Positions 5,431 to 55,310 of a DNA stretch of 64,000 nt are shown here, piece by piece; positions within the stretch are counted from its first letter, which is position 1; each line of letters opens with the position of its first letter. Made by a program: the position numbers and the translations under genes. The stretch spans positions 1 through 64,000 of the forward strand of contig NZ_FNQE01000017.1 of assembly GCF_900107485.1 (NCBI RefSeq), written 5' to 3'. Origin of the DNA: Proteiniborus ethanoligenes (GTDB taxonomy: Bacteria; Bacillota; Clostridia; Tissierellales; Proteiniboraceae). A model generated the notes under the pieces. It saw only the letters and a program-made list of their open reading frames with translations, was not told the DNA's origin and made no database searches.

Positions 5431-5534
5431 AACAGCGGACGCGGTAAAGTATCGCAGACTTATACATAAATAAATCTTTCGTTTAAAGGCAACTTCCCAT
5501 CCTTTAACACTTGACGTGCTTTACCTACTCTGTC
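5431..5534 (-). ncRNA. Tetrahydrofolate (THF, folT-type) riboswitch aptamer
   Basis: The minus strand reads with the class I THF layout. P1 is GACAG/CTGTT at the ends. P2 is GGTAAAG pairing with CTTTACC. The conserved internal pieces GGATGGGAAGTTGCC and ACGAAAG are present, and the 3' signature GCGTCCGCTGT corresponds to the GCAUCCGCU core of the family. It sits directly upstream of folT, the classic target. The match was made by eye from the known consensus; a covariance-model search would settle it. Confidence 0.85.
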
Positions 5535-11340: not shown

Positions 11341-11382
11341 AAAAACAAAAAGCCCTTCGTCCTAAAAACAAGGACGAAAGGC
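11341..11382 (-). terminator. T-box regulated terminator of asnA
   Basis: GCCCTTCGTCCT (11352-11363) pairs with AGGACGAAAGGC (11370-11381), followed on the minus strand by a T-rich tail. This is the terminator half of the T-box switch. Confidence 0.9.
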
Positions 11383-11636
11383 ATATGCTTCCGTGGTACC
11401 ACCTTAATTAGCTAATAATAAGCTCACTCTATCAGTACGGAATCTCTTCGATACTGTCCAATGCATAACGGTTTGGTACCGTCTAAGCCTACTTTCCATA
11501 GTGATTTCGGTTAGAGACTCATAGATGTTCTTCAAATAAAGTACTGTATCGGACTCTCACCATCGCCGACTCTCTTTGACATTTACCTTACTCTACTCTT
11601 CTAATCATAGTCTTTTAATTTTTCGATTTAACACTT
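11383..11636 (-). ncRNA. T-box leader of asnA, asparagine-specific
   Basis: The minus strand shows the T-box landmarks in order: AGAGAGTCGGCGATGGTGAGAG in the stem I entrance, the distal stem I segment CATCTATGAG, a candidate specifier codon AAC at 11510-11512 and the antiterminator T-box AAGGTGGTACCACGG at 11391-11405, before the terminator. The AAC placement was judged by analogy with tyrS-type leaders and fits asparagine, the product of asnA. The antiterminator competes with the downstream terminator stem, so uncharged tRNA-Asn should permit readthrough. Confidence 0.9.
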
Positions 11637-51514: not shown

Positions 51515-52696
51515 TTATTCAGGTTTCACTTTATATACTATCATTTTTTCTATTGCTTTATCTATTAACTCTTCAATATTTAATACTTTCTCTGATTCTT
51601 CAATATCTTCTAATTTCGGCCTTGTCACAGGATGCTTTGGTAAAAAAACAGTACAGCAATCTTCAAATGGAAGAATTGAAGTTTCATATGTACCTATATC
51701 CTTTGATATCTCTGTAATGTCAACTTTGTCCATACCTATAAGAGGTCTTAATACAGGTATGTTAACTGAAGAATTAGTTACATTAATTCCTTTAATCGTT
51801 TGACTAGCTACTTGACCTAAGCTCTCTCCTGTAATCAATGCATCTATTTCTTCTTTTAATGCAATTTTTTCTGCGATTCTCATCATAAATCTTCTAGATA
51901 TAATAGTCATTTCATCTTCAGGGCATTTTGCATTAATCTCTTTTTGAATATCTAATATATTTACACTAAACAACTTAATTCTACCACAATATCTTGTAAG
52001 TATTTTTGCAAGTGTTTTAACCTTTTCTTCTGCCCTTTCACTCGTAAATGGATAGCTATGATAATGTACTGCACTTATCTCTACTCCTCTTTTAGCTATT
52101 AAAAAACCTGCTACAGGGCTGTCAATTCCTCCAGATAACAGTAATAGGCCTTTTCCATTTGTACCTACTGGTAATCCGCCATATGCTTTAATCTTGTCAG
52201 TATAAATATAACAATTGGTCCTAATATCTATATGCACATATGCATCTGGATTATGAACATCTACTGTGAAGCCTTCTGAGTTTTTTAATATATAAGCTCC
52301 TACTTCCCTAGCTAATTCTACTGAGTTAGGTTCAAACCTTTTATCTGCTCTATTTACATCAACCTTAAATGTTTTTATACCTTTTAGTTTTCTAGCTTCT
52401 TCTAGTGTTTCTAATGAGCTCTTCATAATCTCATCTATATCTTTTTCTATCCTATAACATGGGCTAATATTAACAATACCAAAAATTCTTCTCAGCTTTC
52501 TAATGGCTTCATCTATATAATCGTTTTCTATTTCAATATAAATTTTGCTTTGTTCTTTATAGACCTTGTTTTCTCCAATTTCATTTAATATATTTTTAAT
52601 GTTTCTTATTAGTCTGTTTTCAAAATAAAAACGATTTTTACCTTTTAAAGCAATTTCACCGAAGCTAACGCTTAACACTTTATTCAATAATCTCAC
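51515..52696 (-). CDS. thiI: tRNA 4-thiouridine synthase ThiI (short form)
   Basis: A 393-residue ThiI that activates U8 of tRNA with ATP for thiolation. It has a ferredoxin-like and THUMP region (about 55-165) and a PP-loop LLLSGGIDSPVAGFL (about 180-194). Residues CCTVFLPKHP (about 345) carry the cysteines typical of the family. It lacks the C-terminal rhodanese domain, as in B. subtilis, where the neighbouring desulfurase NifZ hands over sulfur. The same pair is seen here, with a four-base overlap to the cysteine desulfurase gene upstream. Confidence 0.95.
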   Translation of the reverse strand: MRLLNKVLSVSFGEIALKGKNRFYFENRLIRNIKNILNEIGENKVYKEQSKIYIEIENDYIDEAIRKLRRIFGIVNISPCYRIEKDIDEIMKSSLETLEEARKLKGIKTFKVDVNRADKRFEPNSVELAREVGAYILKNSEGFTVDVHNPDAYVHIDIRTNCYIYTDKIKAYGGLPVGTNGKGLLLLSGGIDSPVAGFLIAKRGVEISAVHYHSYPFTSERAEEKVKTLAKILTRYCGRIKLFSVNILDIQKEINAKCPEDEMTIISRRFMMRIAEKIALKEEIDALITGESLGQVASQTIKGINVTNSSVNIPVLRPLIGMDKVDITEISKDIGTYETSILPFEDCCTVFLPKHPVTRPKLEDIEESEKVLNIEELIDKAIEKMIVYKVKPE

Positions 52697-53850
52697 CTCA
52701 TAGTTATTTTTCTAATATCTATTACTGATTCCTTTAGTATTTCAATAGCATAGTCTATTTCCTCTATAGTATTATAATGTGAGAAGCTAAATCTAATTGC
52801 TCCTTCTATTTCAGCATCACTTAGTCCTATTGCTTCTAGGACATGACTCTTTTTCTTTCCATGAGAGGAGCAAGCAGATGCTGTAGACACATAAACCCCT
52901 TTATCCTCTAAGTAATGCAGCAATACCTCTCCCCTTACTCCAATAAATGAAATATTTAAAATATGAGGAGCACATCTGTCATCTTGTAAACTATTTATTT
53001 TAATACCTTCAATATTTGATTTCAAATTTGTTAGAAAATAATTCTTAACTTCTTTAATATGCTGTATCTCTTTGTCATATGTCTCTTTTAATATTTGAAT
53101 AGATTTACCAAACCCAACTATTCCAGGTACATTTTCTGTGCCAGACCTTAATCCGTTTTCTTGACTCCCTCCAAAAGATATAGGCTCAAGAGCTATGTCT
53201 TTCTTCACATACAGCCCCCCAACCCCCTTTGGTCCATGAACCTTGTGGCTGCTAAAGGAAAAAGTATCTACCTTCAGTTTTTTTACATCTGTTTCTATCT
53301 TTCCAAAAGCTTGTATCCCATCTACATGAAGATTTGTATCTTTATTCTTTTGCTTAACAATTTGGCTAATACTTTCTATAGGTAAAACAGTACCTATTTC
53401 ATTGTTTACCATCATTATAGATACTAGTATAGTATTTTCATTTATAATTTCCTTTAATTGTTCTAAATCTATCATGCCATGCGCATTTAAATCTAAATAA
53501 GTTATTTTTAATCCCTTATTTTCATAATGCTTTAGTACTTTTAGTACAGAAGAATGTTCAAATTTACTTGTTATTATATGATTGCCTCTTTTTATGTTTT
53601 TATTGATTAAGCCTTGTATTGCAATATTATTTGATTCAGTTCCACCAGATGTAAAGAATATCTCACTTTTATTGCATTTTAGAAAATCAGCAATATTTTT
53701 TCTAGAACTCTCTATTTTTCTTTCGGCTTCCAATCCCATTCTATGAAGTGATGATGGATTACCATATTCATATTTCATCATACTGATTACTTCATCAATC
53801 GCTTCGTCTCTTGGTCTTGTAGTAGAGCTATTATCTAAATATACCTTCAT
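52693..53850 (-). CDS. Cysteine desulfurase (NifS/NifZ-like)
   Basis: A 385-residue PLP enzyme releasing sulfur from cysteine as a persulfide. The N-terminus MKVYLDNSSTTRP, the PLP pocket FFTSGGTESNNIAI (about 67-80), the lysine in SFSSHKVHGPKG (about 200-211) and the catalytic cysteine in STASACSSHGKKK (about 323-335) are all present. Its coupling to thiI suggests that tRNA thiolation is the main task, as for B. subtilis NifZ; iron-sulfur assembly cannot be excluded. It is first in the pair. Confidence 0.95.
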   Translation of the reverse strand: MKVYLDNSSTTRPRDEAIDEVISMMKYEYGNPSSLHRMGLEAERKIESSRKNIADFLKCNKSEIFFTSGGTESNNIAIQGLINKNIKRGNHIITSKFEHSSVLKVLKHYENKGLKITYLDLNAHGMIDLEQLKEIINENTILVSIMMVNNEIGTVLPIESISQIVKQKNKDTNLHVDGIQAFGKIETDVKKLKVDTFSFSSHKVHGPKGVGGLYVKKDIALEPISFGGSQENGLRSGTENVPGIVGFGKSIQILKETYDKEIQHIKEVKNYFLTNLKSNIEGIKINSLQDDRCAPHILNISFIGVRGEVLLHYLEDKGVYVSTASACSSHGKKKSHVLEAIGLSDAEIEGAIRFSFSHYNTIEEIDYAIEILKESVIDIRKITMR

Positions 53851-54051: not shown

Positions 54052-54080
54052 TTGCAGAGTCTGTCGCATTTTGTTATAAT
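54052..54080 (+). promoter_or_regulatory. Near-consensus promoter of a structured RNA
   Basis: TTGCAG (54052-54057) and TATAAT (54075-54080) with exactly 17 bases between them, predicting a start near 54087, right at the first hairpin of the RNA upstream of the asparaginase. Confidence 0.8.
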
Positions 54081-54086
54081 TTGTTT

Positions 54087-54210
54087 GAGGCTACACCCCT
54101 GGTAGCCTTTATAAAGATCTCTATTCCCAATACCCCTTTTGAACGGTTTACTTTGCATCCTATTTCGAAGGTAGGAATGCACAAAAAAGACCCTAAGGGG
54201 TCTTTTTTGT
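54087..54210 (+). ncRNA. Unrecognised structured RNA or attenuator upstream of asparaginase
   Basis: Between a strong promoter and a strong terminator lie about 100 bases with no coding signal. The first element is GGCTAC-ACCCCTG-GTAGCC, a perfect six-pair hairpin (54089-54107) with a C-rich loop. A C-rich single-stranded part follows (CCCAATACCCC, 54126-54136). The second hairpin is TGCATCCTA/TAGGAATGCA (54154-54181) with one bulge. An intrinsic terminator ends it (54184-54208). ACCCCTT at 54132-54138 can pair with AAGGGGT at 54195-54201, in the 3' arm of the terminator, so an attenuator is possible. It matches no riboswitch that I know. Confidence 0.6.
54184..54208 (+). terminator. Intrinsic terminator before the asparaginase gene
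   Basis: AAAAAGACCC and GGGGTCTTTTT form a stem with a small loop and end in TTTTTT. It stands 110 bases before the asparaginase start, so it either ends an independent RNA or attenuates that gene. Confidence 0.9.
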
Positions 54211-54317: not shown

Positions 54318-55310
54318 GTGGGTAATAAGGTGGCAGTAATTTTTACAGGTGGTACAATTTCTATGAAGGTAGACCCAAGATTGAATGCTGCGATTCCTGG
54401 TCTAACTAGTGAAGAAATAATGGGGATGGTGACTAATATAGAGAAATTCACTGAAATTGAAAGGATAAATTTTGGTGAATATCCTGGTCCTCATATAGAT
54501 CCAGAAATGATGATGGAATTGTCAAAGCTTGTTAAAAACACTATCTCAAGAGATGATATAACAGGTGTAGTTGTCACTCACGGTACCGATACTCTTGAAG
54601 AAACAGCTTATCTTCTTGACCTGACAATAAAACCTAAAAAGCCAATTGTTATTGTTGGGGCTATGAGAAACTCTTCTGAGCTAGGATATGATGGACCAAG
54701 CAACTTATCAGCGGCAATTTGTACCGCTATCTCTAAAGAAGCCGTTAATAAAGGTGTTCTTGTTGTTATGAACAATGAGGTTAATGCTGCATCTGAAGTA
54801 ACTAAAACAAATACACTTTCTCTTGATACTTTTAAATCTCCTGAGTTTGGACCTTTGGGAATCGTAGATAATGATGAAGTTATATTTTATAGAGATATTA
54901 TAAATCATGACCATATTGAAACCGAAAACATTGAATCTAAGGTTGCGCTGCTAAAAAGTGTTGCAGGTATGGATTCTGACTTAATAGATTATTGTATAGG
55001 TGCTGGATATAAGGGTATTGTAGTAGAGGCCATGGGCCGTGGAAATGTTCCTATCGAAATGTATAAAGGTATCAAAAGAAGTATTGAAAAAAATATACCT
55101 GTAGTTATTGTGTCAAGATGTCCTACTGGCAGAGTTCTTGACACTTATGGTTATCCTGGTGGTGGTAAAAATTTAAGAAATATCGGGGCAATCTTTGGGA
55201 ATAATCTTCCAGGACAAAAAGCTCGTATAAAGCTTATGCTTCTTTTAAGCATATATAATGATATTCAAACTATTAAAGACATATTTGAAAAGGACATATA
55301 CACAAAATAG
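54318..55310 (+). CDS. ansA: L-asparaginase, cytoplasmic type
   Basis: A 330-residue asparaginase hydrolysing asparagine to aspartate and ammonia. The first threonine is in VIFTGGTISMK (about residues 8-18) and the second in VVTHGTDTLEETAYLL (about 81-96); the later GYKGIVVEAMGRGNVP and PVVIVSRCPTGRV are also typical. GTG 54318 after AGGAGGG is the start; the reading extends upstream to 54033 but crosses the RNA hairpins and terminator. There is no signal peptide, so it is intracellular. Its use here is the reverse of asnA. Confidence 0.95.
   Translation: MGNKVAVIFTGGTISMKVDPRLNAAIPGLTSEEIMGMVTNIEKFTEIERINFGEYPGPHIDPEMMMELSKLVKNTISRDDITGVVVTHGTDTLEETAYLLDLTIKPKKPIVIVGAMRNSSELGYDGPSNLSAAICTAISKEAVNKGVLVVMNNEVNAASEVTKTNTLSLDTFKSPEFGPLGIVDNDEVIFYRDIINHDHIETENIESKVALLKSVAGMDSDLIDYCIGAGYKGIVVEAMGRGNVPIEMYKGIKRSIEKNIPVVIVSRCPTGRVLDTYGYPGGGKNLRNIGAIFGNNLPGQKARIKLMLLLSIYNDIQTIKDIFEKDIYTK

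Follow-up and report, generated by a model that had tools for sequence, protein, structure and literature searches.

C-rich unpaired segments that face G-rich ribosome binding sites are a known device of the small RNAs (sRNAs) of Firmicutes; RoxS, for example, contains CCCCUUUGUU twice (PMC4409812). A second precedent concerns sporulation itself. SpoY of Clostridioides difficile originates from the 5'UTR of CDIF630_00827, is Hfq-associated, is expressed most highly in growing cells, pairs with the ribosome binding site of spo0A via a G-rich motif in this target and represses its translation (PMC10267692). The same source reports eight more sRNAs bound to spo0A in C. difficile, and this organism provides the only case of sRNA control of spo0A translation that we found in the literature (PMC10267692). 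Entry into sporulation in the clostridia considered here is poorly understood.

The DNA analysed here (in the following, the window) is a stretch of 64,000 nucleotides from Proteiniborus ethanoligenes. Positions 54052-54208 of its forward strand read as a complete free-standing RNA gene, consisting of a promoter, a hairpin, a C-rich single strand, a second hairpin and a terminator. The promoter is of the sigma-A type, with TTGCAG (54052-54057), a 17-base spacer and a TG-extended TATAAT (54075-54080), and from its position transcription is expected to start at about 54087. There, hairpin 1 begins (54087-54109), a perfect 8-pair stem in which GAGGCTAC (54087-54094) and GTAGCCTT (54102-54109) enclose the loop ACCCCTG. 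It is followed by a nearly invariant C-rich single strand (54117-54149; window letters ATCTCTATTCCCAATACCCCTTTTGAACGGTTT, AUCUCUAUUCCCAAUACCCCUUUUGAACGGUUU), identified in the family alignment, by hairpin 2 (54154-54181), placed by folding and the same alignment, and by an intrinsic terminator (54183-54208), in which an 11-pair stem, AAAAAAGACCC-TAAG-GGGTCTTTTTT, is joined to a T run. The folding energy of the RNA has a z-score of -3.97, and none of 200 shuffles folded equally well.

A simple consensus scanner reported neither the promoter nor the terminator of this RNA. Both were accepted despite this because of the comparative evidence across family loci: among 96 distinct loci, TTG is found 17 bases (once 18) from the -10 hexamer in 93, the -10 element is extended in 90, and the terminator is present in 90, its stem being kept across genomes with differing arm sequences (AGGCTCC.., AGACTCC.., AAAGCCCC..). 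Thus, the TTGCAG-17-TATAAT promoter, the perfect hairpin at the predicted start and the intrinsic terminator described in the earlier note are confirmed. Its two hairpins are confirmed as well, but the strand between them is more conserved than either. We lean towards an expressed, trans-acting, C-rich sRNA of about 120 bases, encoded as a free-standing unit from 54087 to about 54210.

Relatives of the RNA were detected by BLASTN in 31 of 60 genomes, a few of them as short terminator-only matches, and an exact search with a 29-base motif gave 30 named loci, nearly all in Tissierellia and clostridial relatives (Tissierella, Anaerosalibacter, Schnuerera, Soehngenia, Anaeromonas and MAGs). Two covariance models were used, one of the 5' core and later a broader one. 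The 5'-core model found the RNA in 95 of the 249 genomes of the window genome's order, with a few matches in other orders of the same class. The broader model found it in 259 of 394 genomes and 112 of 158 genera of a second order; in a phylum-wide sample of 398, its matches were limited to the window genome and a single member of the second order. The family comprises about 350 genomes in the searches made here, all these counts being non-independent since the genomes are related. Several genomes carry two to five copies, some of them in tandem. Tandem copies about 180-250 bases apart are seen at L353, L356, L359, L363-L366, L368, L370-L373, L375 and L376, where every copy has a separate 0A-box promoter and a separate terminator and the 3' parts have diverged.

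The invariant core reads GGUUAUCCCCCUGRUAACC, the family consensus of hairpin 1, followed by UAUUCCCAAUACCCCUUUU, and the most conserved section of the RNA is the single strand that separates the two hairpins. Covariation in both hairpins had been proposed as a check on the structure. In the case of hairpin 1 it was found, as five of the eight pairs of the helix are altered on both sides and four of five covariation measures lie beyond 500 of 500 shuffles, with sliding controls far lower; in the case of hairpin 2, the sequence is variable. Plasmid and phage collections gave no match to the RNA, and Rfam gave no family match at permissive or gathering score, in agreement with the failure of the earlier note to place it in a known family. 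The permissive Rfam matches to Atu_C8, SpF25 and Phe leader were discarded as chance matches on terminators. Elsewhere in the window, a T-box leader (11367-11617, reverse strand) and a THF riboswitch (5431-5534, reverse strand) score well above the Rfam gathering score. A literature search for the core sequence found no paper containing it, and nothing linking a Tissierella sRNA to Spo0A was found in the literature. That this is a real sRNA gene family is practically certain. It is widespread and without an Rfam model, and would be a new RNA family.

A feature overlooked by the earlier note lies within the promoter spacer. The Spo0A binding site, or 0A box, is TGTCGAA, and its core TGTCG is found at 54062-54066 of the forward strand, beginning 13 bases before the -10 hexamer. 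This place is fixed in the family: TGTCG is present in 99 of 140 distinct promoters, and in 93 of these 99 it begins exactly 13 bases before the -10, with the consensus TTGTCGAAT. This TGTCGAA-like Spo0A box in the promoter spacer is a new observation of the present analysis. A search of 80 genomes for spo0A with TIGR02875 showed the box to depend on the presence of Spo0A (39/40 vs 1/17, family f19 excluded). In detail, 39 of 40 sRNA promoters from Spo0A-bearing genomes outside f19 have TGTCG and the remaining one has TGTCA, and 16 of 17 from genomes without Spo0A lack TGTCG, the exception (G315/L087) keeping TTTTGTCGAATTTTG. The box was lost in at least five lineages (f3, f4, f16, f5, f20), three of them with boxed, Spo0A-bearing relatives in the same family. 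Additionally, the spo0A leader of organisms with a boxed sRNA carries TTTGTCGAATA.

In the main genus of f19, Spo0A is present, yet TGTCG is missing from the sRNA promoter and TGTCGAA from the spo0A leader, as though a rewiring had affected the entire circuit. The spo0A leaders of this genus (L255-L274) contain a conserved TTTTGCGTAT in place of the TGTCGAA of the relatives, possibly a Spo0A box in altered form. The Spo0A of the window genome has a DNA-binding domain almost identical to those of 1LQ1 and 1FC3, two solved chains. Altogether, the Spo0A box and its link to the presence of spo0A are well supported, binding to it is predicted, and it is very likely that Spo0A controls the sRNA. As the box is situated between two good promoter elements, this control is probably a repression.

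Because of this box, the start region of spo0A was examined. In the window genome, it reads AAATCGTTTACGGGGGGTATAACGAAATG, and by eye 19 of 20 positions pair with the single strand of the RNA. This pairing is not conserved in relatives (median percentile 0.29) and was consequently dropped as main evidence; spo0A therefore cannot explain the conservation of the strand. Most relatives have CAGGGGGGTAA as their spo0A binding site, a sequence complementary over 11 pairs to the loop of the hairpin, UUAUCCCCCUG. The window genome (G000:C1:183414, L214) differs from its sister genomes in the sRNA loop as well as in the spo0A binding site, and here the pairing appears to shift from the loop to the single strand.

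Genes were then ranked by the duplex energy of the better seed, with background genes drawn from genome stretches, and spo0A was placed 2nd of 418, 2nd of 235 and 2nd of 151 genes in three genomes, each from a different family. Compared with background genes, the duplex of the loop with spo0A has a median percentile of 2.2 in 42 genomes that do not belong to the main f19 genus; within this genus, the value is 10%. A binding site with six G is a feature of only 1-4% of genes, and one with five or more G of 7-11%. Outside the order, a run of at least five G is present at the spo0A binding site in 5 of 5 genomes with the sRNA vs about 6 of 24 without it (p = 0.004, not corrected for relatedness), and where genomes of the class have no sRNA, the site of spo0A is mostly an ordinary one of the GGAGG type. 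The poly-G site is also retained in members of the order without the RNA (f10, G038) and may be an older trait of spo0A.

The RNA is thus complementary to the spo0A ribosome binding site, and we regard the prediction that spo0A mRNA is a direct target as an even call. The RNA must have other targets, because it survives in genomes without Spo0A, and as the invariant single strand is kept in those genomes, it must also serve something else. Searches for long complementarity and for AAGGGGTAT next to a start codon showed no excess over reversed controls, so that no target besides spo0A is named.

From the RNA unit, its conservation, the covariation of the helix, the 0A box with its link to spo0A and the complementarity, all of them seen in the sequence, we infer expression, a direction of Spo0A control, a block of translation and spo0A as a real target, which together suggest the following mechanism. 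Firstly, the strong vegetative promoter would drive the sRNA during growth, and Spo0A~P would most likely shut it off at the onset of sporulation via the box between -35 and -10. Secondly, both C-rich sections of the RNA, the hairpin 1 loop (UUAUCCCCCUG) and the invariant single strand (AUUCCCAAUACCCCUUUU), would serve as seeds that base-pair with G-rich ribosome binding sites, blocking translation; where Spo0A is present, spo0A mRNA itself (binding site CAGGGGGGUAA) would be one likely target. The result would be a double-negative loop, in which the sRNA keeps spo0A translation low in growth and Spo0A~P silences the sRNA. A trans-acting, C-rich, Spo0A-repressed sRNA that pairs with G-rich sites, likely including that of spo0A, is the best overall explanation and one we favour modestly. 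The complete loop, an ancient sRNA of two clostridial orders toggling with Spo0A, is proposed tentatively and is somewhat doubtful. If true, the sporulation decision would gain a general level of post-transcriptional control and a bistable switch across two orders. Such a toggle would sharpen this decision in organisms that, to our knowledge, lack the Bacillus phosphorelay.

The same box and seeds could also belong to a Spo0A-controlled C-rich sRNA of central metabolism, comparable to RoxS or FsrA in the way it works, that does not target spo0A and for which the poly-G site of spo0A is a coincidence of G-rich binding sites in these organisms. This would agree with the persistence of the RNA without Spo0A, with an invariant single strand that is unmatched to spo0A in relatives and with the share of genes that have five or more G in their binding site. 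However, in three genomes from three families hardly any gene is predicted to be a better partner than spo0A, and its match with the loop is seen again in most families, so that we consider this reading unlikely, although worth keeping in mind. Spo0A could also activate the RNA, which would then reinforce or time spo0A or other genes in stationary phase. The box is tightly placed, and Spo0A is able to activate promoters with boxes near -35. Here, however, it is located in a spacer flanked by good hexamers, the -10 being extended, where a bound protein is expected to block the polymerase, and no activator is needed; activation is accordingly judged improbable. Even less probable is that the RNA titrates an RNA-binding protein via its C-rich invariant strand, without base-pairing. 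The near-total conservation of the 33-base single strand, together with the lack of excess of long complementary sites, would fit this, but C-rich unpaired segments against G-rich sites are a known device of Firmicutes sRNAs (PMC4409812).

The genomic context bears on a last proposal. Outside the RNA unit, the adjacent divergent gene encodes a nifS/iscS-like cysteine desulfurase (52693-53850, reverse strand), whose synteny extends to much of the family, and the asparaginase gene ansA (54318-55310, forward strand) lies downstream, where it is often, not always, present. In most loci nifS is upstream of the RNA, and in most Tissierellales loci ansA is downstream. At L007/L049, L009 and L048, the RNA is followed by a convergent gene without ansA, and in other families there are other neighbours and unrelated locations for the RNA copies. 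In several families (L083, L124, L117), a conserved upstream gene of about 200 aa, which we take to be possibly of the lactate utilisation (LUD) type, stands between nifS and the RNA. In the small f20 genomes (L085, L088-L092), an RNase H-like gene, presumably YprB-type, directly follows the RNA. As SpoY is 5'UTR-derived, a possible link is of interest. That the RNA is an attenuator or leader of ansA, working through the pairing of ACCCCTT with the terminator arm AAGGGGT as the earlier note had alternatively suggested, is hardly credible and was rejected: although ansA is 3' of the RNA in most Tissierellales loci, the position is not conserved, the RNA being kept without ansA, with convergent downstream genes, in other contexts and in tandem copies, and the antiterminator pairing is not kept either, since the terminator arms vary freely and the C-rich strand is invariant.

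The preferred reading, a trans-acting sRNA whose C-rich parts would face G-rich ribosome binding sites, had been the other suggestion of the earlier note, and it gains support from family conservation, context independence, paralogous copies and the complementarity to the spo0A binding site. Comparison with known sRNAs shows several likenesses. In the case of FsrA and CsfG of B. subtilis (PMC4409812), these are C-rich regions in unpaired segments, CsfG being also sporulation-linked; the window RNA differs in having no Rfam match to any such family. In the case of RsaE/RoxS (RF01820; Staphylococcus, Bacillus), they extend to a length of about 100 bases, an own promoter under a response regulator (in the window RNA very likely Spo0A), an intrinsic terminator, unpaired C-rich stretches that can face Shine-Dalgarno sequences (twice CCCCUUUGUU in RoxS vs AUACCCCUUUU in the window RNA) and a predicted multi-target design against ribosome binding sites. 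The differences are a box of the Spo0A type, compared with the ResD/SrrA control of RsaE/RoxS, other taxa and other synteny. The RF01820 model gave no match in the window, even at E 10, and none in 21 genomes of the order, with a positive B. subtilis control, and RsaE membership was rejected on this basis.

SpoY, compared by description, is the closest functional precedent. Like SpoY, the window RNA is complementary to the spo0A ribosome binding site, repression being a prediction in its case. Unlike SpoY, which is 5'UTR-derived and has no Spo0A box in the accessible parts of its description, it is free-standing and has such a box (PMC10267692). If present in C. difficile, the window RNA family could be among the eight further sRNAs bound to spo0A that the same source reports. 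Overall, the best reading is that the window RNA would work like RsaE/RoxS and SpoY, yet is not an RsaE by model.
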